Under the pieces are notes generated by a model. That model was not told where the DNA came from. It saw nothing but the letters and a program-made list of their open reading frames with translations, and did no database searches. The position numbers and the translations under genes were made by a program. Shown here one piece after another: positions 2,051 through 56,758 of a stretch of 64,000 bases of DNA (its first letter is position 1; each line of letters opens with the position of its first letter). This DNA comes from Mesodorylaimus sp. YZB2_4 (taxonomy: Eukaryota; Nematoda; Enoplea; Dorylaimida; Dorylaimidae): assembly GCA_030248295.1 (NCBI GenBank), contig JASANH010000339.1:372001-436000 (forward strand), in the 5' to 3' direction.

Positions 2051-3040
2051 AAAACAAGGTCACACCATGCGCACGTGAGGCAAAATGAGAAGATATATTT
2101 GTCAGAGGAGAAAATCCAAGACCTTGTCCCTTTTGACCAAACATAAACACAGGCTTATCAATCGGCTAGTGGCCAATTGCCAATCGTTGGCACGTGTTTT
2201 ACGGGCGCTCAAGGAGTATAAATCAAGAAAGCGAACGAAATCAAGTCATAAAATCCAATAGGCCACTTGATCAGAAACCATTGTGGAGAGAATAGTAGAG
2301 CCCCAGATTCCAGTGTGCTTTATCGTCGATGCTCAGGGGAGTATTATAAACAGGAACACCAATGAAATCCGAACACTTATCATCTTTTTTCTGGTTGCTT
2401 CGGCGACTTTAAAAATTGTGCTGCAAGGATGCTCCGAAATAGAACGCAATGCAATGCTGTGCTTTGAAGAAACATAGCGCAGGCAGCTTCTGCTTTTCCG
2501 ATCAAAGCGGGCTTGGGTTCAAATTGGTGAGGCTGAAAAGAATGCAACGCCGAAATCTTGTCCCAACTCACAGAGAGGCGACGTGTAATAGGTGTGTTCG
2601 GGTGCCTACTGGCCGCTCGATAGGTTCCTCCAGGCGAGGTAAAAATCCGTAGGCTTGACGTCTCTGGCTCTTACGACTAGGGGACCTGCCTGGAGGGTTT
2701 TGGGACTATCCGCTTCCTTCGGTTTCTTCTCCAATGTAGGCCTATTCAGGCTATTCCGGCTCCTCTCCAATGTAGGGCTGCAGTATACAGACGACTGGTC
2801 ACTGGTGGGTCGGACGCTCGTGATCAGACTCAATCAACTGATTGTGAGTGACAGACAGGGAACAACTCGGATTCAAGCACGCCCATCAGGGTAAGGCTGG
2901 AAGGCGACCTGTGTCTTGCCGTAGTCATTGCTACAGTGTGCCGTTGCGTTTTCTGTTTTGGCCTAGAATCTCCAAATGCCTCAATCTTGTAATCCCAATT
3001 TCTTGTCCTTTATTCTACCTGCAAATTCATTGACGAGTTT
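2051..3040. other. intergenic, mostly without recognisable content
   Basis: No supported gene. The right part carries a copy of dispersed repeat A (about 2640-2765). A TATAAA at about 2217 is on the plus strand and has no gene to serve. Confidence 0.5.
2640..2765. repeat. dispersed repeat A, copy 1
   Basis: Shares the block CTGGAGGGTTTT, followed by GGACTATCCGCT and a CAATGTAGGCCATTC-like stretch, with copies at about 10365-10460 and 41062-41130. It is non-coding, and its class is unknown. Confidence 0.6.
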
Positions 3041-3280
3041 TTAAAAGCGGGACTTTGGCAGGATGGCGGAGCCTGCCTTGCACGACTAAAGTAGATATCT
3101 GCGGGGTGTCCGCTCCGTCTCCATCCCCGGCACCCCGGGCGGGGGGGGGGGTGTCCCTGTTTGGTTCGCAGCCGCTGTCTCTCGTTGTTTTTCTCTTCTC
3201 TGGGCCGGGTTGCCCCCGGGGGGGGGGGGGTTTTTTCCCTTTCCCCCGGGGGGCCCCGGGGGGGCTTCTCCTTTAAGTGA
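3040..3280. other. aberrant G/C-homopolymer block
   Basis: About 240 bp dominated by G and C runs: G11 at 3141-3151, G13 at 3218-3230, then alternating C5 and G6-7 blocks. It looks unlike anything else in the window. It may be an assembly or base-calling artefact, or an unstable G-rich tract. The proline/glycine-rich reading frames through it are products of composition, not genes. Confidence 0.6.
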
Positions 3281-4724: not shown

Positions 4725-6348
4725 ATGCAAGGGGAACGGAAGAACTCGATGGAAACTGCTCGCGACGACTTTGTGGAGAAGATAAGTGTGGCTGGTTGGA
4801 AAGAAGCATTTGGTGAACGCGTCACATGGATCGCTCATGTGTTCAAGGTGGTGCTGGCCTTTTTGTCCGTCGCTTGCGTGTGTTATCTGTACAAAGGAAT
4901 GCTCGAATGGGTCCACAGTGGATACACAGACGAGATATCCGATGTGGCCCTCGTACAGTCCTAGCCCATGTCCAATGTCAGTGTGTGCGCCCAAGTCTAC
5001 TTTAATCAAACATTCGTCAAGCAAGCGGTTACAGTACCCCCGGCAGTCATTGATGAGCTCAAGAAGGAAGGAGGCGAATCTGCCTTGGAAGATTTCTACC
5101 GCCAACTGGCCCTATACTTAAGCGCAATAACTCGCACGCGCAGTTTCGATCAAAAAACGATGGTTTATTTTCGCAAAATAATTCAAACCAGCCCCCAGCT
5201 TCAAGATTATTCCGCTTTTGCAGCAGGAGCCGTAGCAACTTGCCGACGCATGTTTAAGCGGTGTTGGTTTGATGGGGACGAGTTCGACTGCTGCGCACGA
5301 GCAGTACACTCGCTGGACGATGATGGTGTCTGCTATGTGATTACAGTAAGTCAATACCGGGACTGGTCTCCCTCGGCGATAGCCCACTTCCTTTCAGCTC
5401 AACATGGACAGCGACAACGCCCAGCCATCACCGCTCACTTATCACCAAACCAGACCAGGTCCGATGGGAGGCTTGAGCATAGAGGCATCGTTGGAGCTGA
5501 AGGACTTCCCGTGGTTAGAGGACGATGCCCAGAATGGGTTCAGGGTGATCGTGGCCCCCACTCCGATCAGTGCTTTGGTGTCGCCCGTCACCGCGCCAGA
5601 CAGAGCCGAGACATTTGTTAAAGTCGTTCCGTCTAAGCAGCAGCTGGCAACTGATTGCTCCCCGCCTGGCCATCTGTCCATGAGGGGAGGTGATTTCATG
5701 TACTACGACCCCGAGGGCTTCAGCTGCATTGTTCGAGAATTCGTGCGTGTGGCCAGGCAATATGTGTCGTGCGACTTTGCTCCGTATTTGAACCGACCCA
5801 ACAGCACAGTCGGGTGTGGCCCGAAAGTCAATTACTTCCTCTCATCACTGTTCGCCGCCACTGATTTTGACGGCGCGATTGGGATTGTCGGCAAGGAAGT
5901 TCAAGCAGTCGGGATTTCCAGCCAGGAGGTACGTTTAGGAAAACTTTTTCACGGGTTCATGATATGATCGATTTTTCAGACCAAAAGGGTAGCCAAAGAG
6001 GGTGAAGAAGCGATAAAGGCGGCTCTGTCAGAGAAATCTCGCTGTCCGAGCCACTGCACCCACTGGACCTACAGCAGCACAGCCAGTTTTGTCGACTTGG
6101 ACAACGAGGAGCCAGAGCACGAACGCATGTACAGTAGGATACACGTCTATTACTCGGAACTGTCCTATCGTCAACACACGCAGGTCAAGGAGAAGACCAT
6201 CTACCTGGCCTTTTGTGAGATGGGCAACGTTGTGGGCTTGTACTGGGGAATGTCCATCGTCAGCTTCGTCCATGTTTTCTATTATGCTCCACGATATGTC
6301 TACGCTTTGAGGAAGAACCGTCGGATGGGAGTGCAGACTCAAAAGTAG
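4725..6348 (+). CDS. second DEG/ENaC-family channel, with an in-frame TAG (possible pseudogene)
   Basis: Three-exon model 4725-5345, 5398-5928, 5980-6348 (introns of 52 and 51 bp; 1521 nt in total). Seen: TM1 (AHVFKVVLAFLSVACVCYLY), then the post-TM1 region around NVSVCAQVYFN, a cysteine-bearing ectodomain (GVCYVIT, SRCPSHCTHW) and TM2 with Gly-Met-Ser at the filter position (LYWGMSIVSF). A TAG at 4962-4964 interrupts exon 1 in the same frame, between DVALVQS and PMSNVSV, exactly in the conserved post-TM1 block. Both sides are otherwise open and family-like, with no frameshift. It may be a recent pseudogene, an assembly error, a polymorphic stop or a readthrough site. The HG gating motif is AG here (ISVAGWKEAF). 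An AATAAA follows the stop codon. The gene is flanked by inverted copies of repeat B. Orientation is opposite to the first DEG/ENaC gene. Confidence 0.82.
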
Positions 6349-9516: not shown

Positions 9517-11072
9517 ATGGCTCAATCAATGTTATTTGCATTTTTTCTCACTATCGTTCTATTCACATTTCCGAAAACGGCTGTCGCTGAGCCAAATCCA
9601 GAGTGCCAAGATCATCCGCGCTTAAGAGAAGCATGTCAACGACTGCCCAATTTAAAGTCGTGGTGCCAATCCAAGTCGAGAAACCCTGGTTTTAAGGCAA
9701 ATAATGTAGCCGAAGTGTGCAAAGCTTCTTGCGGATTGTGTTCCCGTGCCGTTTCAGATGAACGAGATGGGGTGTTTCAAGTAATTGAGTCGAGGTCACA
9801 GGTACGGTAGACATGTGGGATACCAATTCAAAGACACTGGGATCGAGGATTGTCAGCCCTTGGGGTTGTGTATCTACGAATCGATAGATGCCTTGACTGG
9901 CCGCTTTATTGAAATCCTTGGCTCGCCCTAGGTCTATTCTAAGGCTGACCAGAGGATGGCTCAAGCCAGGAACCAACCCACGCAGTCCACGACACCTCGT
10001 GATATAGTTTATTAGTCCCCACACCACAAGGGCCGTGTAGACTCACAATTCGGGGAGCAGCCGCACGTGCCAGCCGTCAAAGGGGTTCTGACGGACCTGA
10101 GCCCGAAGTGCTCACAGAGCAAGTTCAGATCAGGCACTCAAGGCTAGTTCTCAACCGATGTCTGCAATCAGACCAGTCACTCGACCTCGACCTCGCTCTC
10201 GGTCTCGTGCTGGCCCTGACTTAGGAGAGGCGGACCGGTTCCCTGAACCAGTGCACACATAGGCCAGAGGGCATAGCACATGCCTAGTCCATGCCTATTA
10301 CATTATGCAGGGAGCAGTGTATTGGATACGATACGCTCTGTCCAGGCGCGGAAGAAACTCGTCTGCTTGATGTCTCACGACTACGAGACCTGCCTGGAGG
10401 GTTTATGAGACCATCCGCTCCTTTGGCAGCACCTTCTGTAATGTACGGCCATTCAGCCTTTTGCGACTTTAGGAAAATGACCGATCGACGAAAGCTCCTA
10501 CTCGTAAACATTCTGGGACGACTAGAAGGCCCGGAAGACCAATCAGCAATGTAAGTCAGCTAGTGATATCCCACACACAAACCCAATGCTTGGTTTTTTT
10601 TCTCTTATTAGGCATGCGGTGTCGAGCCAGATTACAAGCCGTGTATTCCACTCAAGGTGGCCAATGCCCTGTTTCTTCGGTGTTGCCAGGATTACGACGT
10701 CCCTTCCAAATGCACTGGTCTGTGTAGGTACAACATTACTCTGGTCGAGGTATAAATTCATCTGATTTTTGAATATCTGGTATGCCATACGCGACATTTT
10801 AGGCCCAAACCATCGCACTTTCCAGTGCCTGCCCGATATCTGCGTTATCAACTCATCTATACTGCGCCTCGAGAAACCGTGATAACACGGCTTGTTGCAA
10901 TGCCAAGTCTGTAATGGAACAAGCTGGAGAACACTGCACTCCGTTCTGCGATCCAACAAAAGACATGGGCACAATTGGAGAAGAACACTTGTCATGCGCA
11001 ATGCAACTCGAAAATATCATGGATTGCCATTGGGCAGGAATACGAGAACTAAATGACAGAGATAAGGGATGA
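9517..11072 (+). CDS. secreted ShKT-domain plus DB-module protein
   Basis: Four exons: 9517-9780, 10473-10550, 10612-10749, 10803-11072 (750 nt, 249 residues). Signal peptide MLFAFFLTIVLFTFPKTAVA. Next is a ShKT-like domain with six cysteines from ECQDHPRL to VAEVCKASCGLC. A basic linker exon follows (TRKHSGTTRRPGRPISN). Two cysteine blocks then match the nematode DB module: RCCQDYDVPSKCTGLCRYN, and TACCNAK with HCTPFCDP and SCAMQLENIMDCHW. An ATG at 9424 would add 31 residues, but the start at 9517 gives the better signal peptide. The long first intron (9781-10472) holds repeats D and A, so the linker exon is the least certain part. Expected to be an extracellular protein of cuticle or secretory origin; its role is unknown. 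ShKT domains occur in many ordinary secreted proteins, so no toxin function is implied. Confidence 0.7.
9885..10170 (-). repeat. dispersed repeat D, copy in an intron
   Basis: Within the first intron of the ShKT-DB gene. The reverse complement resembles 14975-15230 and 48350-48600: shared CTGGTCTGA, GAACCCCTTTGA, GCTGCTCCCC and GGCGAGCCAAGGATTT blocks. Confidence 0.6.
10365..10460. repeat. dispersed repeat A, copy 2
   Basis: Carries CCTGCCTGGAGGGTTTATGA, then GACCATCCGCTCC and TGTACGGCCATTCA, shared with 2640-2765 and 41062-41130. It lies in the intron just before the linker exon. Confidence 0.6.
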
Positions 11073-11079
11073 TCTGTGT

Positions 11080-12350
11080 GATGTGTGTTCATATGGATGA
11101 TTGCCCCATGGTTATGACTCTAAAATAATACGCACCGCAGTTGATCAAAGTTTTGCTGTATGCCATGCCGAGAAGGATCAGGTGGTGGGTTCGATCTTAC
11201 CTCGCTTTGCAAGTGCAGTTTTGCTATGTCCTGCCCAGGTAGTACTGACAGACTAGCAAGAGAACGACCCAGAATACTCAAACAAGGGGACCGGGCTCTT
11301 TCATCCGGCTGCTTCCTACGACCAGGCTGTGAGGGCCATAAGAAAAGTCTTTATCAGGTAGGACAGACAATTCTGGGAAGAGTAAACCCGTGAGAGTCAA
11401 GAACAGCTACTGTACAAAGGTGACTTGGGCATGAAGTAAGGAATATGACGCGAAATTTCGTTAAGATGAGGCATATAGGTGCGAATGATCATGTTTTGAT
11501 TATCTTAACTAGTTAGCCAAGGTTAACCGTGAAAGAATGTTTGGCCCACTTTGACCTTTTTGGGGACATACATGTAGGATTTCAAAGTCATCCGACGTGG
11601 GGGATCGAAGGATAAGATTTTGATAGGTCCTGCATATATCTTCCTGAAAAAAGTATGTATACCTATTAATAGCTCCACTGAGGTATTAGGTACTTTTGTT
11701 ATGGATGACACTGGCGGGGTGGAGAAAAAGCAAATAGAAAAGCAAAAAGCACAAAAAGTGGGCTAAAAATGGATCTTGTGATTTAGGTACTGATCATTTA
11801 CTTAGGCAGCATCGCTAAAATGCACTCAAGGACGTAGCACAGTTGTTTCAAAATTTAAAAAAAAAGTTTTGGACCGAAGGCCGTTTTGCCTATAGCCGGC
11901 AGAGCGAGCAAAATCAATGTGGGTGTCATGAGCTCTTATACATAATTTGGATGCGGAAGACTTATGTTTCTGAAGCGTTGATTCGAGGAGTTTTGTAAAA
12001 ACTCGAAATCAACTCTGCATTGTTTATTTGGCCCAGACAGCACCTGTGCCCTGCGCAGAAGTAATCGTCAACAAGAATTTTTATCAGCGTCAGCATCCAA
12101 GCTACCTTGTTTAGTGCATTGATCATGTAGCTGCACTCTGCCCTTCTAGCCAGCTGTCGCTTGACCCTATGTGTATGGGATATGGCGCTGGAGATTTAGG
12201 GATAAACATTCTCGAATTTCGCCCCCCCCCAGCCTTGCTCCGCCTCACAAACTCTGCTAATATAAGAGCCATTTGCAACTGACAGTGAGAATAACCAAAG
12301 CGATAGTGTGGTTTGTACTTGCAGCGGAGAAGCCCTCGAGGTCATCGCAG
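11080..12350. other. gene-free stretch with repeat H
   Basis: No supported gene. About 11800-11845 (GCATCGCTAAAATGCACTCA and following) recurs at about 57685-57725. A C9 run lies at 12222-12230, just upstream of the next gene. Confidence 0.45.
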
Positions 12351-12352
12351 CA

Positions 12353-13325
12353 ATGAGAAAACTCCTGATAGCGATTGCATTCTTTTTGTGTGCTGGTAGA
12401 AGTTTCTGCACGGTCACTTTAGGGTGTAACTCCTTTTACTGTTGCAGGCGTTCAAGCCCTGAACGAAGAAGCAAGACTGCTGCATCAAATTCTTGAGGGG
12501 TACGACCCCAGAGTGCGTCCCGTTATTGACAGCCGCAACCCGGTAAATGTCGCGCTCAAAGTTTATCCTATCGACATGTTCGAAAAGGCAAGGCTTACTG
12601 AACATACAGCAGACGGTTGCAGCCTGCTTTGAAGCTTGTCACATTTTAGGTCCCTCACGATAACGTATACTCTATCAATGCTTACATCTCTTTGGTAAGG
12701 AAAAATCCCATTATCCCGACTACAGTAAGCTCAGACTCTTTCTTGCAGGAGTGGGCTGATCAGCACTTGGCTTGGAACCCAGCTGACTATTTTAACATAA
12801 GCCGCATTCGCGTGCAGCCGTACAAGGGTGATAAGTCGCCTGTGATATGGACTCCAGACCTGGTCATGTGGTCGGGGTATGTTCACTTTTTCTTTCGTAA
12901 AATGTGCTCTCTTGTACAAGGCATGTTGCAGAAAATTCGATGAGCTGGACGTGTTTCCAACACGAGCAGTCATCTATCACGATGGGACAGTCCGTTGGTT
13001 TCAGCACCGCTCCATGACTGTGCCTTGCGCAAAGAAAGTAGAGGGCGGTGTGACGCGTGTCAAGTGTATGCCTGCTATGGGATCGTGGGCGTACCCTGAA
13101 AAAGAAATGAATTTGCAAGCTGGACTCGCGGAAAAGGGAGTTGGTCGAAAATTACCAGGATCCAAGTGGAGATTGGCAAGTAGGCTGTGGTTAGGTGCGC
13201 GTCGATTCGATACCGACCTTAAGATTTCAGGCCAGAACATAAATAAGACCTCGTTGTTCTATCCGTACGAAACATCTCCCTACATCGAGATCACCTACGC
13301 ACTTGAATACGAGTCCGAACAATGA
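12353..13325 (+). CDS. secreted Cys-loop ligand-binding-domain protein (acetylcholine-binding-protein-like), copy A
   Basis: Six exons: 12353-12395, 12448-12587, 12650-12694, 12749-12876, 12932-13179, 13231-13325 (699 nt, 232 residues). Signal peptide MRKLLIAIAFFLCAGVQA, then only the extracellular domain of a nicotinic-type receptor: NEEARLLHQIL helix, WNPADYFNISRIRV, loop A WTPDLVMW, loop B GSWAYP. The Cys loop has 12 residues between cysteines, as in molluscan acetylcholine-binding protein; receptors have 13. The protein stops after the last strand (IEITYALEY) with no transmembrane segment, so it should be soluble. Loop C reads YPYETSPY; the vicinal Cys pair that defines acetylcholine-binding alpha subunits is absent. 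The Cys loop lacks the usual FPFD. Intron 2 (12588-12649) uses a GC donor. Likely binds a small ligand or modulates cholinergic signalling; the ligand is unknown. Confidence 0.85.
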
Positions 13326-13718
13326 GCCAATGCTGGGTGTCAAAACGGAAAGTATTGACCGAAAAAATGAGATCTTTTGAATGGGTTTGTTTGACAGATT
13401 TTTAAACTAGCTAAATGCTGAATGTACAATAGGGCTAAGAATAAATGCTCGTAAACATGACGACGCTTGTCCCTGGTACAACCGCCCTCACCGAGCAGCC
13501 CCTAAAAACCAGGGCATTTTTCGCACAAAGCACATTGATCGAACGAGACAGCTGGCCTTGATCATCTTGCTTTCATTCTTGTTCTTGTCAGATATGTATT
13601 ATGGGCAGCCAGTTATGCTGGCAAGCGAGTGGGTCAGGATACTTCTTGTCTGAAAATCAAGACTAGCTCAAGTCAGACTTCACAGCCTGCGTCTGGTGCT
13701 CGTTCGCCCTCTATCGGG

Positions 13719-14761
13719 ATGAATCCGGAGCTAGTTTTCCTTTATCTTTTAGCAATCATTGGTATGATTTTCATGAACCACTCGTAATTGAACTTGGCCA
13801 CTTGTCTGTCTGTTTAGGCGTGCACGGGTACAATCAGCAAACCAAAATCTTGCAAAAGGTTCTTAAAAATTCTGATCCTCGAGCGCGGCCTGTAGCCAAT
13901 GATCTCGACGCTATCAACGTCTCATTGGCCGTCTATGCGAGGGACTTGTACGAACCGGTGAGTATCGATTGGTGCATCTCGCAGTGTGGCGTGATTATTT
14001 AGGAAGTGCCTGAGGCCCCACTGATATCACTTAGTAAGGCACCTATTGCACATGGCATGGCATTCAAGCTACCATGAAATGTCATCTATTTTTAGACTGG
14101 ACATGACAACGTCTATCGTCTGCGTATCATTTTGAGTCAGGTAAGTGCTTCAAGTATACAATGCACCTATCCGACTTTAACCCGACCATCTGTTTAAGAG
14201 CTGGACTGATGAGTTTATCGCATGGGATCCAAGAATGTTTGGCAACGTGGAGAGAATTCGTGTGAATCCATCCGTCATATGGACACCGGACATCACTTCG
14301 TTCTCTGGGTAAGGGTTACAGTATGATTGTGTTTTTGCTAGTAGTATCGACACTTTCAGAAAACTCGAACCACTGGACACGTACACGGAGAAGGCCATAA
14401 TTAACTACGACGGCAAGGTGCGTTTGTATGTGCACCGTCTGGTGGCATTACCCTGCAAGGTCGAGGCACGAACTACTGGAGGACAGCGAGTCAGGTGTTC
14501 TGCAACGTTCGGATCTTGGGTTTACCCGCAACAGGAGTTGAACTTGCAAATTTTAGAAGAGGATATAGCCCTTACTCGCTCTGCTATCGGCTCCAAGTGG
14601 CAACTGACTGGTAATAAATGCGACTTTGACAAATCTTCTCGCACTATCTGCTTTGTCACTTAGGATACAACGCAACCAAACTGTTGTTCCAATATCCTCA
14701 CGAGACTTCGCCCTTCCCCAAGATCCGCGTTTCCGTCGAGTATACGGCAGATGGCAATTAG
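13719..14761 (+). CDS. secreted Cys-loop ligand-binding-domain protein, copy B
   Basis: Tandem paralogue of the preceding gene, 393 bp downstream on the same strand. Exons: 13719-13761, 13818-13957, 14096-14140, 14199-14308, 14360-14610, 14664-14761 (687 nt, 228 residues). The first three exons have exactly the lengths of copy A (43, 140, 45 nt) and all five intron positions and phases agree. Signal peptide MNPELVFLYLLAIIGVHG. Domain motifs: DNVYRLRIIL, WDPRMFGNVERIRV, loop A WTPDITSF, loop B GSWVYP, loop C YPHETSPF. The Cys loop holds 13 residues (CKVEARTTGGQRVRC). It ends after the last beta strand (IRVSVEYTADGN) with no membrane segment. Loop C again has no vicinal cysteines, and the loop A aromatic is Phe. 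Sequence divergence between copies is large although the exon plan is shared, suggesting an old duplication. Confidence 0.85.
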
Positions 14762-14974
14762 AAGATCTGCTGCATCGTATTAGCGTAGTGATCAGTCATT
14801 TTATCTTGTCTGTTCAGTAAACGAAGCATCATTGAGAGCAGTCACTTCGTGATCGCCCTTTTAGAAGAGTAGAGGCATGGAACAAGCAAGTGGTTCCAGG
14901 ACAAGGAAACTTCCCCCTTATTTGCCTCATCACAGCCCCGCTTTTCATCGTAACAGGGGGAATAGCTCAGTTTG

Positions 14975-15230
14975 GTTACGGGCATCTGTAGGGGACTGGT
15001 CTTGAGTTCCTGGTCTGACCCAGCAGCGGTCCGTCCGAACCCCTTTGACAGCCGACACTTGTGGCTGCTCCCCGAATTGAGAGTCTATACGGGCTTCTTG
15101 GTGTGGGACAGTAAAGCTCGTCGAAAATTTCCATGAAAACGTGGGATCGCTCCTACGGCTTGAGCCGTCCTCTGCTCATCCCGTCTGTCCTAGGGCGAGC
15201 CAAGGATTTTAATACCTGGTTCATTACACT
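14975..15230 (+). repeat. dispersed repeat D, copy
   Basis: Shares with 48350-48600 the blocks GACTGGTCT, GAACCCCTTTGA, GGCTGCTCCCCGAATT, TGGGACAGTAAAGC and GGCGAGCCAAGGATTT. No reading frame is preserved. A short related fragment lies near 22630. Confidence 0.65.
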
Positions 15231-15639
15231 AAGCGCGGCAACCTTACGGCCAAATCCGCGCCACGCGGCAATGTAAATGCCCCATGACCAAATCCATTGC
15301 ATGTCCGCCCTTTACTGCCGTCGGAGTGGGTTTCCGTTTACTAGGAGCTCGTCCATCAACGCCAACGCACCCAGCACCCTAAAGTCGCTCACGTAGAACC
15401 GCCTTGTCGCATCATTAATAGAAGCGCTAGCATCTCTATAGTGTGTGCGGCTGCAGGAGATAAACTTTTATAACAAGTTTGAAAAAGCTGAGCCGAAATG
15501 TGAAAGGGACTTGGGAGGGGCGAAAATCTAGGGCGGGGGGGGGGGGGCAAGTTTCCGTAAACCTTCTTCCTGCAGACTTTTACTATAGTTTTCTCATGGC
15601 TACAGCAGTTACGAGGTGTTCAGGAAACCCGCTTGAGAC

Positions 15640-18869: not shown

Positions 18870-20360
18870 AGAGTGCCGTTACCTCAGAGGTCTGTGTGGG
18901 CTTGTATATTGTCTGTGTTTACTCGTCATTTTTCATCCGTGCATTCAATCGCGTGCCAGTGTGTGGTTTTTGTAACGCACCATGTCGAACTGAAAAACAG
19001 GCACTGACTGTAGAGTAGCTACAGCATGGACTGACGTGCTCGAGTCTGTGAGTGGTCCCTCGATGTGGGTGTTTCAGGCAATGTCGCTGCGCATATGACA
19101 ACAGTAGGTGGGCCCATTTCGTGAGTCGAATAGGTGAAGCAGCGAGTCACTAAATTTTAGTTGCGCTAATTTGCAGCGAAAACTACTTGTTCGCGTTTTC
19201 TTGAGAGAATCTCATTATCGCAGAGCAGAGGCGCCGGTAGCCGACCTACAAGAAGAATAGTAATATTTTTTGAAAGCCATTCCCAGCGTGAGATTAGAAT
19301 TAACCACCGATCGTGAGCATATGCTGAGGTCGCGTGCGTGAGTGTACGTGCGTGAGCATGCCTTCATACCCAATGAATTTGTCTTACAGGCGTGAGAAAG
19401 GAAGTCCGTGCTTAGCGAAGCAGACATACTTGATTAAACCTGCCATTTTGGTAACTCGTTGATGTCTAAGTGACTAGTCCTTCTGTGGATTTGACACCAT
19501 ATACAGTATGTTCGGCCTGGTTTATCGATGCAGGCAGGCGGACCAGGCTGAAGGTCAATCATCTAGTGGATGCCATTTCAGTCAGCAATCATCCATCGAG
19601 TTCGATCAGTTATTTGTTATCATTCATGAGAGTTAGGTAGAATTTCTTTCGACCTAGACCGTCGAAATAGTAAAAAATTCATTATTTTTTCGCTGCACAG
19701 TGTTCGTAATGCATTAGGGACGGACGTCATGTTCACGGCACGAATTATTCACGCGTGGGACTCGGCACAAGACGTGCTGGTTGAGTGGGACAGTCATGAA
19801 CGTCCCATCCGTCGCAAAGCACTGGTGATAAGGCCATGATTATCAGCAGCGATGTGGATGCGTCTGTTTTGATCATTGGCTGTTCTCGATTTGAACTTGC
19901 CTCGCCTTACCTCATCCCATCTGCTTGAACACTTTATGAGCGCAGTTGGAAGTGGACACAATCGTTTGACTTCTTCTGCTGTTCAAAAAAACTCAATCGA
20001 CGGGTTTGATTGGGGTTTTTTGGTCTCATTTCCTCGCTTGCGGCCAGCCAGATTTAATATTCTCGGTCAGTGAACGTCTGGGTTTTTCTTCGTCTTTAAG
20101 CAATTTCAACTTGCACTACTCGCTTTAAACAAATAACCAAAGGTGAAAATGAGAATTTAATTTCCCGAATGTTCCACGAGCGTGACAATGTCAGTTCGAT
20201 TTGGTAGATATGGGGACTGGTGGTCATTATATTGTTGACTTTGGTCACAGCGAGACGACGGCATCGATTAAGGATCTCCCAGACTACGGCAGGCTCCTTA
20301 TTTGCGTACGTGCCAAGAGGCCATAGAAATTTTTGAAACCATTCGGAAAGGTAGCGCGAC
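18870..20360. other. intergenic, nothing recognised
   Basis: About 1.5 kb between the archaemetzincin and GPCR genes. Short frames exist on both strands, but none has family motifs or plausible splicing. Confidence 0.45.
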
Positions 20361-20365
20361 CTAAG

Positions 20366-21786
20366 ATGGACGTGGTCAGCATATCTCGAGCCGAGTTTCG
20401 AAGACATTTTAATGTTGATTTGCTGACAGTGCTCTCTGAACAAAGTGATCATAGCCTCGGACAAATGCAAGACCAGTTCAATCCGCATCATTCTTGGCTA
20501 GTGGCCGCCTATTGCGCATTACTTGTTGTGGGGGTAGTGGGCAATTTGTGGGTAGTACTGGTCATCGGCTGTGGTCTTCGTCATTCTTCTAAATATTCTG
20601 GACCATCCTCTACTGCCCCCAAGGCCATTCAAATTCTCATTTTATCGCTATGTTGCTGCGATTTGATCGTTTTGCCATTCCTCCTTTTTGTGATCACTGA
20701 TCTTCTATTTGGTCAATGGATTTTGCCTTTCCAAACCGATCTATGTCGCGTCTATTTGTGCAGCGAGAGCTTGAATAAGTTTTTCGGGCCATTCCTTCTT
20801 GTGGCATTGAGCGGGTACTGTTATGTCAGCGTGTGCTCAACTCCATCGAATTGCTGGAATTTTTTAAAAAATTCTAAAGTATTCTCTCAGCACGCTGGCT
20901 CTGGAGCAACGACCACAAAATGGTGTCTGGGAGTGATTGGAGTATGCTTCGCCTTAGTGCTACTATTGATGACCCCTGTGTACGTATATGGCGATGTCCG
21001 TTTCGTCATTGTGTTCAACGCGAGTTCACTCCATTCGATCACTCCCAAATGTTCATTCGAACCACCCGAGAATGTTCTCGGGGCATTCGTGGTGTACAGT
21101 TTTGTGTGCGGCTATGTTATACCTGCTTTTTTATTCACATTCTTCTACGCCTCCATTTTAAGTCGCGCTTGGCGTCAAACAAAAAGACGAGCTGAGAAAC
21201 TACCCTTACGTATGCGAAAGGTGGAAGAAAGCCTAGACGGGAATAAAACACTCAGGTCCGCAGCCACTCCCGATACCAGGCGGCGGAAATCGTACCTGAG
21301 TCGGGTAGTCAAGACCACGTTGGGTATGGTATTGTTCTATTGTTGTTCTTGGACACCCTATTATGTCATGTCGGTCTATCAGTATTTCACGCCTCAGCGT
21401 ACAGTAACTGATGATTCGAGTGCCGTGGCGGTGGTCCTGTCTTATTTGGTCCACATGCTGCCTTATATCAACTGCGCCGGGTATCCGATTCTGTACACGG
21501 TAAGAGGCCATATGACCGTCTCTAATCGCACACTATCCGCAAGTGTTGCAGGCACTGAACCATTCCATACGAGACGCATACCGAAGGTCGGTTAGGCTGA
21601 AGAAAAGTCGACAAAGGTGGCGTGGCGTGAACACGTAAGTGGGGCACCCCTTGTTCACGTACGAATACTGTAATGCCTTTTACTTTCAGCACTGATGGTA
21701 ACAGCAGGGCACTCATCCATCACAGAGAACTACGCTCAACATCGAGCGCCCCTTTGCCTCACCGCATACGGCTGGTTTGGTCGTGA
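20366..21786 (+). CDS. rhodopsin-like (class A) peptide-type GPCR with altered DRY and NPxxY motifs
   Basis: Three exons: 20366-21499, 21552-21634, 21690-21786, about 437 residues. Seven membrane segments are visible. TM1 carries GN (VVGVVGNLWVVLVIG), TM2 the conserved Asp (LSLCCCDLIVLPF), TM3 starts at DLCRVYLCSESLNKFF, TM6 has SWTPYY with the conserved Trp and Pro, and TM7 is YINCAGYPILYT. The DRY triplet at the end of TM3 reads YCY (ALSGYCYVSV), replacing Arg3.50 with Cys, and NPxxY reads YPILY, replacing Asn7.49 with Tyr. The tail (ALNHSIRDAYRRS, then a Ser/Arg-rich end) is supplied by exons 2 and 3. Overall layout resembles somatostatin/allatostatin-C or FMRFamide-type peptide receptors; the ligand is unknown. 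Confidence 0.85.
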
Positions 21787-23541: not shown

Positions 23542-25065
23542 TCAAAAGTACAACACGCGTTCTTTGTCTTCGTCACTTGTCGACTCTTGTTTTCCTTTCT
23601 TTTTCTTGGCCGTCTGTTGCACAACGGCCATGCGCACAGGCGATGTGAGTGCGGCCGTTGGATCAAGTCTATCTTTACCTCCTCTGAAATCGCCGCCCTT
23701 CTCCATCAATTCGAACAAGCTGTGTCTTCTCACGGTCAAGTGGGTGTGTAAGCTGGGCGGGTGGTCATCGATTTCTGCCGACAGTTTGGTGTGTGGTAAC
23801 CAGACGTGCTTCGATTCGAAGAAGCGATCCACATAAAGGGGTGGGTCTTGTACGCATATGTAATCGGCCATGGCCATGGAGACTTGAGCGTGGCGGTCCA
23901 ACAAATAGTTCAGCTCCACGTCATCATCGTCTGCGCGTAAAAGAGATTAGATAAGACACGAACACGACAAGTCTTCTTACCTTCTCCGAATGGACGCAGA
24001 AGATCTTGCGCGGCTTTGAACCAACCTGGAAGAACCACAGAAGACATTAGAGAACAGACGTAGCCTCTAGAAGAGCCTTACCAATGTAAAAGATGAACTT
24101 GAGTATGATGAGGAATGGTATGTAAATGTCACGCTTTTCATCGATGTACTGACCGCCCAACAGACAAAGAGCAAAGTAGCCGTACAAGCCAACTCCTGAA
24201 ACGTAATTAAGACTTTGGTGAGTGCTGGCCAGATAAGAATTCTGCGATTCGTCAGGCTCACCTGTGGCTTGCGTATAAACCAACGGAATGCAAATCCAGT
24301 CATAACTAAAACCGTAGCACGTTATCAAAGAACAAAACACAGCATGGTTTACTTACGCGAAGAGAACTCTCAACTTTTCTCGAAATTTATTGAACTCGGT
24401 AAACAATGCCACTGCTTCTACGGGTGGCAGTTGACCTCTGTCATTGCCGATCATAGGAACGACTAGGTTTTGGGCCCACTGCAACGGCAATTGCCAACGT
24501 ACGCTCTCGCATGTGGTATTTTTGTAATATTCGTGTTCATCAGCAGTCATCATATCGGCTTGGAGTACGTGCTCGACTGTGGGGAATCGTCTACGCACTC
24601 GAGTCGAGACACCCCGCAGGGCCAGGATTTGGGTAAGGATTAGATATCTGGCTATCGAGTGACGCTTCAACTTCGACTCGCGGTCGTCGGCTGGAAATAT
24701 CGAATTGACCAATGCCATTGCTTCGTCGGGCCACGGCACGCTGAGCACTTGCGACCACCAACGTGAGATCACTTGCGATACGTAGAACCCGAGCATGAAT
24801 TCGATGGGAAGTTCTGTTGTGAATTGGGCAAATATGTTGACCAAGCTTCGCACAAAGATCAGCTGCTCCTTGGATACAGCGTAGGTGATACTGAAGCGCA
24901 AAGCGTAGTACATGAGTAACCAAATAAGCAGCTCGCGCCACACCTGAAGAAGTAAGTTACGTCAGAAATGGTCAATTTTTCTACAAAGTAACTTACAGCT
25001 TTCCATACACTCGCTTTCCATCGAAAAAGTAGACTCGAGAAACTACCAGAATAGGAAACAGTCAT
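23542..25065 (-). CDS. bestrophin-family calcium-activated chloride channel
   Basis: Six exons: 25065-24997, 24943-24357, 24305-24262, 24195-24082, 24025-23981, 23930-23542 (1248 nt, 415 residues). Predicted to form a pentameric anion channel in the plasma or internal membrane, opened by cytosolic calcium. Landmarks in order: MTVSYSGSF start, LLFRWKASVWK, FTTELPIEFMLGFYVSQVI (the neck, with both Phe of the filter and Leu for the usual Ile), RWWSQVLSVPWPDEA, LILTQILALRGVS, RRRFPTVEHV, YDWICIPLVYTQATG, GWFKAAQDLLRPFGEDDDD. The EDDDD acidic run is the calcium clasp. After QVSMAMADY comes a lysine-rich cytosolic tail (AKKKKGKQ) that is shorter than in vertebrate BEST1. Every junction fits GT..AG with introns of about 50-66 bp. 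Confidence 0.94.
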
Positions 25066-31849: not shown

Positions 31850-33472
31850 CTAGTGGCCAAATAGCCAAATGGCTAAGCCTAAGCTCTGGTTCCACGTACC
31901 TATGACCTTTGTAATTTCTGTCCCATTTCTGTCTGCAGTAGAACCGTCGAAACTTTGCTCAGTCGTTTCATTCTGCCCAGCGATGAGCAGCTCATTGTCA
32001 GCGGCTTTATCTGGGTCGACAATTGTCCTCCCTTCTCCATATTCTGGTTCAGGTAGAGACGGCGCCGCCCCACTACCCGTTTCGGGGCTGCTGCTCCAGT
32101 TGGACGGGCTTGTATTGTTTCTCCATTCGGTGCTCGCATCGACTATTGCGGCGTCCGAGTTGTGTTGGGGCCATGCAGGCATAGCTTTTGGGCCTGTTCC
32201 ATTCATTCGCTGCTTGTCGATAGCTGATAGTGCCAAAACACCAGCTGGCTCCATCTGGGTGCTGGACGCGTTTAGTGTTGCCGCTGTTTCATTTGTTACT
32301 ATGGACACTGAACTCTCGGACGCACTGGTGGACGAGGTTGTCGTATTGAGCGATGTGTTGGCCCCAGAAAAGGGGATCGCTTGCTTTCTTTCTTCATCTA
32401 GAGAAGGACCATTCCGGCTCCCCCGAGCAGCATATTCGATCATGGTTCTGGGCGGAGACAATTTTGGTCCAGCGCCTTCTCGTAGTATGCTACTGGGACT
32501 GGATACGATACTCAAGTAGATTGGTGATGCGTCCAAGCGATTTATAAAATTCTTCCCGTACAAGACTGATCCCAAGACAAGTGGCTCAGAGGTGAGCAAC
32601 TGGTTTGCACGCGCTCTTAACCACACGTGCAGCGAGGCAGTGTTGTCGCCAACTGAGGCCAGCATGCCTGGCGTTATGAGCACGTACAAATCCAAAGTAT
32701 TGGCTATCTGATTGCGGACCTGCATGACGGCCTTATCCGTTTCATTTAGAGCAGAACCTAGGCCGTACTCCGACTGATCGACCGCCAAATATCCAGGTAC
32801 GGTCATCTTGAGCACAACGTTGCCTGCCGCAGGGTCGATCTTCGCAACTAGGAGGATTTGGATAGGATTTGTCGAAGTTAGTCGATACTTCATGCCGTCT
32901 TTGTCCATGCCTTGATCATTGATCACTCGTGTGCTGATGTCGATCGAGTACAAAAGAAAATACTTTCCTGATGAGCGTTGGGATTCTACCCCTGATGAAC
33001 TTTGCCAATATCTGAATAGAGAAATAGCGAATTGAGGATTCTCGATCACGCTTGTCGTCGACACGTTTTCCAAAGTGAGCACGCATCGAAAAACTAGTCC
33101 GGCTTTCCAAACACTTTGGCTGCCAGACACGATCGAGAAGCTTCTCGTATTCTTGATGACGCGATCCCCCAGAATAAATCTTCCCATCAGTTGCCCGTCG
33201 TCGACCTTGAAGGCCAGAAATTCGACGTGGCACTGGCTCGGTAACGATTCGCAAATTGAGGAACTGACGGTGGCTTTAGAAAACCATAGTTTCGGTGGTA
33301 AGAGGATTTCCAAAGCGGGTTTCTCCACGGTGTCGTTCCTGATTGCCACTGATACGTTGATGGTCAGCGATCGGCCGGTCAAGAGGTCATCATCGCTCAG
33401 CCGTATGCCCATATCGATACATCGGGCTGTTCCCGCGAAGAATAAGGCCAGGATGATCGACCAGATCAGCAT
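31850..33472 (-). CDS. orphan secreted Ser/Thr/Asn-rich glycoprotein-like protein
   Basis: Single long frame of about 540 residues. ATG at 33472 gives a clean signal peptide (MLIWSIILALFFAGTARC). The N-terminal ~330 residues look folded and beta-rich (LEILLPPKLWFSKA, CRHV-free; LYVLITPGM, SLHVWLRAR), with a few cysteines. From about residue 350 the sequence turns into a Ser/Thr/Asn/Glu-rich region with many N-glycosylation sequons (NTT, NET, NAS, NGT, NNT, NWS). I recognise no family. The ORF stop at 31850 may not be the true end, because a GTACG donor lies at 31899 and the last 15 residues are uncharacteristic. There is no membrane anchor in what is visible. One of the longest uninterrupted coding exons in the window. 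Confidence 0.62.
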   Translation of the reverse strand: MLIWSIILALFFAGTARCIDMGIRLSDDDLLTGRSLTINVSVAIRNDTVEKPALEILLPPKLWFSKATVSSSICESLPSQCHVEFLAFKVDDGQLMGRFILGDRVIKNTRSFSIVSGSQSVWKAGLVFRCVLTLENVSTTSVIENPQFAISLFRYWQSSSGVESQRSSGKYFLLYSIDISTRVINDQGMDKDGMKYRLTSTNPIQILLVAKIDPAAGNVVLKMTVPGYLAVDQSEYGLGSALNETDKAVMQVRNQIANTLDLYVLITPGMLASVGDNTASLHVWLRARANQLLTSEPLVLGSVLYGKNFINRLDASPIYLSIVSSPSSILREGAGPKLSPPRTMIEYAARGSRNGPSLDEERKQAIPFSGANTSLNTTTSSTSASESSVSIVTNETAATLNASSTQMEPAGVLALSAIDKQRMNGTGPKAMPAWPQHNSDAAIVDASTEWRNNTSPSNWSSSPETGSGAAPSLPEPEYGEGRTIVDPDKAADNELLIAGQNETTEQSFDGSTADRNGTEITKVIGTWNQSLGLAIWLFGH

Positions 33473-33479
33473 TCTTGGA

Positions 33480-34760
33480 AATGTCCGCGGGACGCAGAGG
33501 AGGCACAGGCTCACTCTTTCTCGTTCAACCTTTAGAATGAGGGATCACAATACGTGGATCGTGAGACAGCGAGAAGTTGTCAGGGCTTAAACTACGAGCA
33601 TTCATTAATTGGCGCGGTGCGTGGGACTGTTCTTGTAAATTCTCATCATGTTGCTTAGGCAACTCCGGCAAAGAAATTGAATAATTAGGCCAGGTCTAGG
33701 AGTGCCTACGATTTCCAGACTCATTATCTCAGCTAATGAGCCTCGCTTCAAGCTTCTTTCTGAATTAGCAAATGAAATTGTGTTGGCGGCCCTAAAAACG
33801 GGGGGGGGGAGACGACTGAAAGACGTGCGTCTTTCATCTGCTCCATCTAATCATCCGCTCCAGCTTATCATCTGCTTTCGAAAGCAGATGACATTTTCAG
33901 GATGAAAAGGTGATAAGAAAGCTTGTTTTCGATGCCTCCATGTGCAGCTTGTTTAAGACTTCATTTACGGAATATACTGTATATTGTTTGCAACTGCATA
34001 TATACTGTACGTTACGGTGAGCCGGGCAGTTTGTAGAACTGGCTCATCTGCAGTCGCAAAAATAGGACCAAGAATATCGCAAGACTTTGTCAAGTATTCG
34101 AATCTTTGATAAAAGTGAAACGGGACTTCAAGCCAAATTGTACCTTCTACCAAGGGTGATCTATACCATCATGCTGGTCATACTTAGTGTACACTTGCGT
34201 TTACTCTTTTTGACGACCCCTCCCCGAATTTTTTTCAACTTTTTATCCTGGTTTGATTTGACTACATTTTAGCACAATGATGGCACCAAGATGTCTAGTT
34301 TCTATGAAATGTCGAAGTTAATTTCACAGCTGGCAGCTGTATTGTTAAATTTATTTCCCTCACTACAGTGTGTAAAGAATAACTGTAATCGATTGGGGGT
34401 GGAATCAAACATAATTTATGGCGACTGCGTTTATTTTTGTGCACTTGGAGCAACTAAAAAACGTCTCGTAATATCGAGGAGTTCTCACTGTCAGTCTAGT
34501 TACTATTCGGGGTGTAAGGTGTGAGATGTAGGTGTCTCTAGTTGGATACTCGTGCCAGCTGCGTTACCATCACGTTTGCCCTTTGGCCTTCGTCCGTCAG
34601 ACGATTAGGTGCGTCGACTAGTTTATTTCTGCTCCTTTTTTGTGCAGTTGACTGTCCAAAAGCCAAACTATGTATTCCCGTGAATCGAACTCCCATTACG
34701 TAGTGTCTAGTGCCCTGAGGTAAACGATCTTCAGTATTTCAGAAGGTCCCAGAACGAAAC
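33480..34760. other. intergenic, nothing recognised
   Basis: AT-richer than its surroundings, with a G10 run at 33800-33809. No supported gene. Confidence 0.4.
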
Positions 34761-42009: not shown

Positions 42010-47310
<5,301 letters not shown>

Positions 47311-54468: not shown

Positions 54469-56247
54469 TTAAAATAGATTTTCATCGACCAAATTTAGCA
54501 AAAAATGTAATTCCTTTTCGGTAAAAACCATGTTGTTTTGTTTTGAGAATAGAAAATTAGACTTATCCATGTTATCATCCACAAATTCTGACTCCTCGTC
54601 TATCCGAATCGATTCCTTAGCCTTATAAACACGTCCATCCTGTGTCAGCGATTCGCTTTCCGAAAGTGATCCGTTCGACCCTTCCCTTTCATTTGCAGCA
54701 TTTGCGTCCGCAATGCATTCATTGATTTCGTGATATTTTAACATAATTTCCGCCTGATATGTCGATTTATCCTCTCTGTGGTTTGATATGACAGCTGCAA
54801 ACAATGTCAAAGTCGATGTCGTGCCTTGATTTGTATCCAGGCGTAACAGCGCGCCTTGATGATCTGCCATCGATGTCTTTATTGGAGAGAATCGGCGATC
54901 AGGAACAATAGTGGACGCCGAGGGTGCATCGTGACACGGACCCAGATGTCGGCACGCTAAAGCATCTTGAGGTTGCGTACTCGAAGCATTGCCAGCATCT
55001 TCTTCGACATCCTTAACCCACGTTTTATCGATTGCCGTCTCAAATCGATGTCGTATTTCCATCGCGGAATCCTCGTCTAGTCGTCCACCGAGAAAATGCA
55101 ATCGTCTTATTGTCAATTTTTTCAAAAAATTTTCCAGTTCTTTAGTTGTCGAATGATCAGTGTACGAAATAAAATGAATGCACTGTTTCAAGTAAAAATT
55201 CTTGCTGTCAGCCCTCGTTCGAAGATTTTCCCAATTGGATATGTCGACAGGTGACACAAATACAATTACTGTCGCTGTTTTCCCACTTTCTATTTCATCT
55301 TTGAACATTCGAATAATCTGACCTTTTGTGCCGTTAATTAGCCGAAATCGCGTCATTTCTGGATCTTCTGTAAACCCATCACAAGCCTGAAAAACGATTC
55401 GATTAGGTTCGACGTTTCATATTTGATGTTTCAATTGTACGCTCTACTTGGACTAATCGCAGTTGTAAGTTCGGAACTTAAATCAAAAGAGAAACGACAA
55501 TATTTACCGAAATTTCGGCTTATAAAATCTAAAATAAAAAGAAACCACAATACTTACTTCGATTTCTTTCAAAATCTTCAATCGATAACCCGAAACAGCG
55601 ATCAATTTGTTGAAATTACGGGAAATGGAGGCTAGAATCTTTTCTTGTCCGAGTGTTCCATCAGGAGTAACTAAAAATATGGTTTCCGGACTCGGTCGTT
55701 TTGCAATAACATCGAGTCCATTTACTGTTGACCATTGACGGGTCCGAAATGGGAAATCTGTCTTTTCTTTCCCCCAATTCGTCACATCCAAATAAACGTG
55801 ATCGATAGGTTTTTCCACGAGAATCTGCATGTCGAATAGGCTTTCCTCCTCGAATCGAAATGCACCCGTCACCAAAATACGACCGAACCAGCCATCAAAA
55901 AGGAACATGGTCGATCCCGGACAATAATTCGCTTCCAGTGCAGTCACATGGAAAACTTTTCCTTCGAATTCCGTGTTTATCTTACAACTGATCGTTCGAG
56001 TTTGTCCGATTTCGATGGTTGTGAAGGAGTCGGGTTCCAAATCTTGCAATATCGCCACTACACGAGCCGTGATTGGTGAGCAGTAAATTGGATGGCGCCA
56101 CGACGGTGTTAGGCCGAACAAGGAATGACTATGGGCGTGTGTTAGGAAATGGAATCGGTCAGATGCTCGCTCGCCATGGCTTGCATTCCAATAATCGACG
56201 CAAATAGGAGTACCATTGATTTTGAAGCCGAATGAGGAAATGCTCAT
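54469..56247 (-). CDS. SNM1/Apollo-family metallo-beta-lactamase-fold protein with missing metal ligands
   Basis: Two exons, 56247-55558 and 55386-54469 (1608 nt, 535 residues), close to the size of human Apollo (DCLRE1B). Active relatives are 5' exonucleases in telomere and crosslink repair. Fold markers are clear: GTPICVDYW, FHFLTHAHSHSLFGL, HPIYCSPITARVV, VTALEANYCPGSTMFLFDGW, GRILVTGAFRFE, and an SGYRLKIL region of the second domain. The catalytic signature is largely gone: HxHxDH reads HAHSHS, the His of NHCPGS is Tyr, and the Asp of TGDFR is Ala. The Asp of VDYW remains. Both reading frames are open throughout. The C-terminal ~200 residues are acidic and low-complexity (ESGSNG-like, Ser/Glu-rich) with no recognised motif. 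I infer a catalytically dead scaffold. The start at 56247 is the first ATG giving a proper fold start; exon junction phases agree. Confidence 0.85.
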
Positions 56248-56249
56248 TG

Positions 56250-56758
56250 TCTTTATGACGACGGAATGAACGCAGATTGTTGGAAATGGAGGGGCTTCAG
56301 AAGATGCTAAACTGCAGCCTGTAAAATTCAGGGCACCAAATAAAAACAAGGCAAACTAAACAAACGAAAGTCAAAATTTTAGCGCCTATTAGCAGACAAT
56401 TTTAGCTGCCTATTCCAATTTAAGCGGGCTTTTAAAAATGTGGGCTACTGGTTTTCAAATGACGGCACTAACAATCCAGGAAGATTTCGCTCTGTTCAAG
56501 CTCCTCAAAAATGACATCCCGACCGTGCATTACCATTTTTTAAAGTGAACTGGGACTAGTTTTCGCTAGGACTGGTTATTATCACCAATTCGATATATAA
56601 TTTGGGATTTACTAACTAATTATGTCAGGCGCGGCCGGATTTTAATAGTGTTCATGATGGATATTGGTGTTTTTATAGGCTACTAATCGAGACTGTATAA
56701 AAGCAGCGAAATCCATGGTAGGCACCTCAAGCGGCAGCTCATACCATTCGGGTCCATA
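56250..56758. other. intergenic between divergently transcribed genes
   Basis: Upstream of the SNM1-like gene and of the small secreted gene. I see no clear promoter element. Confidence 0.4.

Follow-up and report, generated by a model that had tools for sequence, protein, structure and literature searches.

Tandem genes for channel-less nicotinic-type ligand-binding domains without vicinal cysteines in the nematode Mesodorylaimus sp. YZB2_4

Acetylcholine-binding proteins (AChBPs) serve as the standard soluble models of nicotinic receptor ectodomains, and both their physiological role and their distribution are unsettled. They are known in molluscs and an annelid, and one has been proposed in a spider (PMC4569296). 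A 64,000-nt stretch of DNA from the nematode Mesodorylaimus sp. YZB2_4 (hereafter the window; contig C62, positions 372001–436000, of a 145-Mb assembly in which genes are split) contains two neighbouring genes, A and B, each of which encodes a nicotinic-type ligand-binding domain (LBD) and then stops. This raises the question of whether A and B are receptor genes whose channel portion has been lost or overlooked, or genes for AChBP-like proteins of a nematode.

Both genes lie on the + strand, 393 bases apart, and each is spliced in our models from six exons into an uninterrupted ORF. Gene A (12353–13325) encodes 232 aa in exons of 43, 140, 45, 128, 248 and 95 nt, and gene B (13719–14761) encodes 228 aa in exons of 43, 140, 45, 110, 251 and 98 nt; intron phases are 1, 0, 0, 2, 1 in both. 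The spliced models agree with the common exon plan (first exons of 43, 140 and 45 nt, equal phases) proposed in an earlier sequence-only reading of this DNA. Nine of the ten introns are GT-AG, the exception being A intron 2 (12588–12649), which is GC-AG. In each gene, exon 1 (A, 12353–12395; B, 13719–13761) encodes a hydrophobic N-terminus that resembles a signal peptide by inspection (MRKLLIAIAFFLCAGVQA in A). The models place exon 2 at 12448–12587 and 13818–13957, exon 3 at 12650–12694 and 14096–14140, and exon 4, with loop A and the IWTPD motif, at 12749–12876 and 14199–14308. Exon 5 (12932–13179; 14360–14610) holds the Cys-loop and the GSW of loop B, and exon 6 (13231–13325; 14664–14761) holds loop C, strand β10 and the stop codon. 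By consensus match only, a possible TATA box (TATAAG, 12261–12266, + strand) lies ~90 bases 5′ of the A start codon, and a possible poly-A signal of A (AATAAA, 13440–13445, + strand) lies 115 bases past its stop; no consensus poly-A signal was found after B up to position 15600. Two copies of one dispersed element, recognised by eye and in opposite orientation, flank the pair at 10001–10120 and 14966–15110.

Neur_chan_LBD was the sole Pfam domain found at E≤0.001 in either protein (A, 1.7e-27; B, 3.8e-30). The exon models were compared with a spliced-alignment profile (custom script) made without A and B from gene C (see below), the Aplysia and Lymnaea AChBPs, human α7 and a host receptor subunit on contig C130. 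This profile recovered exons 2–6 of A and exons 2–5 of B with scores of 153.9 and 155.7, respectively, the outer ends of the first and last exons being trimmed; B exon 5 was recovered in part and B exon 6 was missed. As a control, 20 shuffled versions of the A/B region scored 20.0–28.6 with the same profile. When human α7 was the sole query, the spliced aligner put A exons 2–3 elsewhere. The A and B proteins are 41 % identical, and identity at the three codon positions is 0.51, 0.66 and 0.38 over 224 aligned codons. Different codons are used at 51 of the 91 residues identical between A and B, suggesting that the protein sequence was preserved as the DNA diverged.

Neither gene continues from the LBD into M1–M4 as a nicotinic receptor does; at the gene level, A and B each consist, like an AChBP, of a nicotinic LBD without transmembrane segments. 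No match to PF02932 was found near the pair, and the sole match on contig C62 among those listed lies ~57.5 kb away. A profile of M1–M3 scored 18.0–25.3 within the A/B pair and in the sequence downstream of it, no higher than the shuffle range of 20.5–27.0 (n=20), and 22.5 downstream of gene C (20 shuffles, 20.5–27.0), compared with 46.9–93.3 for six host receptor loci that were not part of the profile. Across the whole window, the best scores were 26.2 on the + strand and 29.4 on the − strand, where receptors reach at least 46.9; the higher of the two is slightly above the shuffle maximum of 27.0 and lies on the opposite strand to A and B. With no M1–M3 exon detected by profile and no PF02932 nearby, we rejected the idea that A and B are receptor genes whose membrane part is hidden or mis-assembled. 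Together with the Neur_chan_LBD hits, the absence of an M1–M3 exon bears out the initial claim that two neighbouring LBD-only genes end here before any membrane segment. A, B and C all stop at the same structural place, after strand β10. In a genome survey, 30 of the LBD matches listed reach at least model position 205, and by our reading all 30 continue into M1 (for 20 of them PF02932 matches ≤1 kb downstream; the other 10 were judged by eye). This survey could miss similar genes, since A and C are absent among the matches listed and B is present to model position 193 only; a better test is to search with the A, B and C proteins themselves, which gave further candidates on contigs C166 and C49.

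The Cys-loop and the binding site indicate how far the likeness to AChBPs extends. The [FYW]PxD motif of the receptor Cys-loop contacts the membrane domain. Of 34 host receptor predictions, 33 carry it and the other one ends before the Cys-loop; FPxD is missing from the Cys-loops of A, B and C, as it is from those of the Lymnaea and Aplysia AChBPs. The cysteines of the loop enclose 12 residues in A and 13 in B, just as first counted, and 14 in C. We number the site by what we take to be α7 positions 55/93/149/188/195 for the aromatic cage and 190–191 for the Cys pair. The cage reads Y/W/W/Y/Y in A (aromatic at all five positions, with swaps), I/F/W/Y/F in B (aromatic at four of five) and W/Y/W/Y/Y in C, the residues of C matching those of α7 and Lymnaea AChBP. 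Positions 190–191 are CC in C, YE in A (loop C, FYPYETSPY) and HE in B (QYPHETSPF), so the alignment agrees with the sequence-only reading, in which GSW and IWTPD were said to be kept while YE and HE replaced the Cys pair. As the vicinal Cys pair that marks loop C of an AChBP is replaced in this way, we term A and B AChBP-like rather than AChBPs. Neither protein has the vicinal cysteines and B has no aromatic residue in loop D, which makes binding of acetylcholine by A and B doubtful, and from these residues it is plausible that the two have a ligand other than acetylcholine. Gene C, having the vicinal cysteines and the full aromatic box, should by the same reasoning bind acetylcholine. A membrane receptor of the host without vicinal cysteines was also noted (locus L014, contig C1053), in which HPYYPD replaces the YxCC of loop C and is followed by M1.

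Gene C is a third soluble LBD gene, unlinked to the window, on contig C166 of the host assembly (G000; L053:2958–5296, − strand). Its model has six exons (58, 134, 42, 128, 263 and 101 nt) encoding 241 aa, with the same intron phases as A and B (1, 0, 0, 2, 1), and the product matches Neur_chan_LBD at 5e-34. Loop C is YPCCPEAY and the terminus is YPCCPEAYVHYNFNLTLAENKKA, where the stop codon follows directly after β10. The gene therefore combines the features by which an AChBP is recognised: an LBD only, the Cys pair, a full aromatic box and no FPxD. In a search with A, the best match outside the pair was C166 (1.8e-8), and in a search with B, C166 was not among the matches listed. With C as query, the top match outside its own contig was a remnant on contig C49 (4.7e-12), followed by A (2.2e-7), B (3.6e-5) and, close to B, the receptor on C130 (5.2e-5). 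The C49 copy (L054, ~2750–3160, − strand) is a decayed relative of gene C in which pieces of exons 2–4 carry stops and no later exons were found; this fourth copy looks like a dead remnant. Since gene C keeps the vicinal cysteines, the A/B pair looks, from its sequence, like a derived branch within a larger soluble family.

Searches of the PDB gave results that differ among the three proteins. For C, an AChBP chimera (9e-34) came out best together with chains named soluble acetylcholine receptor, and the best rows for B were likewise an AChBP chimera and chains of that name, while the best row for A was a membrane receptor, 8bx5 (1.5e-21), which we take to be the Alvinella receptor Alpo4. Like A, Alpo4 retains aromatic residues at the binding site although it lacks the vicinal disulfide; it is, however, a membrane channel rather than a soluble protein, and the reported screening yielded no ligand (PMC10338036).

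That the window belongs to the nematode genome is supported by its repeats. Of 46 loci compared, it matches nine, with best pieces 68–92 % identical. One of the nine is on C62; others are on C166, on C49 and on two contigs that carry cuticle collagens, C6 (72 % identity across 182 bases) and C82 (87 % across 105 bases). Contamination was rejected because the window shares dispersed repeats with the collagen-bearing contigs C6 and C82. Col_cuticle_N (PF01484), which we take to be a nematode-specific family, has 133 matches in the assembly, on the strength of which a tardigrade or arthropod host was discarded. The 22-mer that we took to be the canonical SL1 sequence has no exact match in the assembly, which fits a lineage lacking canonical SL1 and proves nothing. 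A dispersed repeat at 44734–44936 is up to 91 % identical on C166 and C49, and a second copy on C62 is 84 % identical. Elsewhere in the window, ORFs 1511–2059 (−) and 4965–5618 (+) match the amiloride-sensitive sodium channel family (ASC), ORF 20327–21592 (+, 422 aa) matches the rhodopsin-like GPCRs (7tm_1, 2.2e-21) and ORF 24356–24961 (−) is bestrophin-like (1.2e-48); ORFs 31853–33544, 54472–55416 and 55507–56355 (all −; 564, 315 and 283 aa, respectively) have no Pfam match at 0.001. The window returned no Rfam match at the gathering score and no tRNA in a bacterial-code run, and the viral and prokaryotic collections, where nematodes are not expected, gave 21 and 35 pattern matches, respectively, none of which was confirmed as a relative. 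Among the receptor loci of the host, L028 (C273) and L029 (C635) have equal LBD scores and an identical spliced prediction and are probably haplotype or assembly duplicates.

The relationship of A, B and C to host receptors and to molluscan AChBPs was assessed in two trees: tree 1 had 23 rows and all columns, and tree 2 had 24 rows (three dropped and four receptors added), the Cys-loop and Cys-pair columns removed and another MAFFT setting. A and B formed a clade with support of 100/99 in both, and A, B and C formed a clade with 99/95 in tree 1 and 96/96 in tree 2. Identity of gene C is 35 % to the host C130 subunit, 34 % to A, 31 % to Aplysia AChBP and 29 % to B. The C130 subunit, which pairs with human α7 in the trees and which we read as an α7/ACR-16-like subunit, has the same domain, and its exons 3 and 4 (45 and 110 nt) equal those of B in length; FPxD and an M1 segment, which A, B and C lack, are present in it. 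Four of the five nicotinic loci first spliced (L051, L052, L056 and L066; not L055) combine a 45-nt with a 110-nt exon, the 45-nt exon occurs alone in receptor loci L014 and L030, and neither occurs in L021, L022 and L027. We therefore set aside the exon plan as special evidence: it is largely the ordinary plan of nicotinic receptor genes and, as such, weak evidence.

The molluscan AChBPs compared here, those of Lymnaea and Aplysia, resemble all three proteins in having an LBD that ends after β10, a hydrophilic Cys-loop without FPxD and the loop B Trp, and they share with gene C the Cys pair and the full aromatic box as well. Identity to them is 18–23 % for A and B and 23–31 % for C, and A and B differ in lacking the Cys pair and in their nematode host. 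Two further AChBPs can be compared by description: that of the annelid Capitella teleta, a soluble AChBP from a phylum outside the molluscs (PMC4569296, PMC3423370), and the putative one of the spider Cupiennius salei, an ecdysozoan, which is described as a 246-aa nicotinic LBD without membrane regions and with a Cys-loop of 16 residues (PMC4569296), compared with 12, 13 and 14 in A, B and C. The starting assumption placed such proteins in molluscs and annelids, but the proposed spider protein indicates that they are not confined there. The description also extends to the amorphous calcium carbonate-binding proteins of pearl oyster and abalone, AChBP variants acting outside synapses (PMC3423370); their function is shell-related, and no such link was seen for A, B and C.

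These comparisons leave several ways of reading the family. We consider it reasonably probable that this nematode has a small family of secreted nicotinic-type LBDs without a channel, to which the tandem pair of A and B belongs and in which C keeps the acetylcholine site, A and B have a changed ligand preference, and the proteins form AChBP-like rings that buffer ligand. It is possible, though we think it doubtful, that A, B and C are instead true orthologues of the molluscan, annelid and spider AChBPs, the soluble family being ancient in protostomes. The tree with all columns unites A, B and C with the Lymnaea and Aplysia AChBPs (96/96), and the PDB rows of B and C point the same way. Against this, support for the grouping drops to 67/0 in tree 2, a fall whose cause is not isolated because columns, rows and MAFFT setting changed together; on the tree 2 data, grouping of A, B and C with the host C130 subunit (AU p 0.075) or with human α7 (0.063) is not rejected, and the best PDB row of A is a receptor. 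Gene structure leans towards a separate origin, since several introns of the receptor type persist in A, B and C, whereas in the Biomphalaria AChBP genes only intron 1 is said to resemble those of receptors (PMC3423370). The sequence-only reading had called the pair an independent or unreported case and had asked for such a phylogeny, which delivers the A+B+C clade in both trees and an unstable kinship with AChBPs. As to the two adjectives, no nematode AChBP was recognised by title or abstract among the literature matches listed (subscription journals being mostly outside the coverage), in agreement with the second; the first is unproven.

The remaining readings concern what A and B make. That they arose from nicotinic receptor genes by recent truncation, or are pseudogenes of such genes, and make nothing functional seems quite improbable to us: the related copy on C49 is visibly decayed, but the 12 exons of A and B are in frame with usable splice sites, their proteins are conserved despite silent divergence, the stop falls at an equal structural place in all three genes, and the Cys-loops of A, B and C have lost the FPxD that a recent truncation should still have. 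Alternatively, A and B could be accessory subunits that join C, or membrane receptors, in mixed assemblies as modulators and bind no ligand of their own. Their lack of vicinal cysteines, as in non-alpha subunits, and the loss of the loop D aromatic in B would suit such a role; we nevertheless regard it as unlikely, given that Trp149 of loop B and Tyr188 are kept in both proteins and that A is aromatic at all five cage positions.

On the reading that we favour, a small family of secreted ligand-binding domains, an intron-bearing nicotinic receptor gene would have given rise to a soluble form ending after β10. Released from coupling to the pore, the Cys-loop would then have lost FPxD, as its pattern of absence suggests. 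One line, that of gene C on C166, would have retained the acetylcholine site in full, with its vicinal cysteines, and in the other the cysteines would have been lost, the gene duplicated in tandem and the site altered to give A and B, probably in that order. The products are most likely secreted and may form five-subunit rings as AChBPs do, which would capture a small cationic ligand extracellularly, at the interfaces between subunits: acetylcholine in the case of C, and perhaps a different or more loosely held amine in that of A and B. Their role would be to buffer or scavenge ligand outside cells. The snail AChBP is secreted by glia and has been proposed as a suppressor of cholinergic transmission, while others propose that it acts away from synapses, and a molluscan variant binds calcium carbonate (PMC3423370); by analogy with that variant, a role for A and B without a neurotransmitter ligand is possible. 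More tentatively, this nematode lineage could have made its own soluble ligand-trap family independently of molluscs, in which A and B, freed from the vicinal cysteines, bind another cation, such as betaine, choline, a biogenic amine or a food-borne alkaloid, so that the members of the family would act as secreted sponges for different ligands.

AChBPs as a kind of protein are already known, and we rate as new the nematode AChBP-like family with its tandem branch lacking vicinal cysteines. One canonical copy beside two without the Cys pair in the same nematode would amount to a natural experiment on the roles of the disulfide and of the pore-coupling loop, and the family could bring to light a sink outside nematode cells that takes up acetylcholine or cholinergic drugs.
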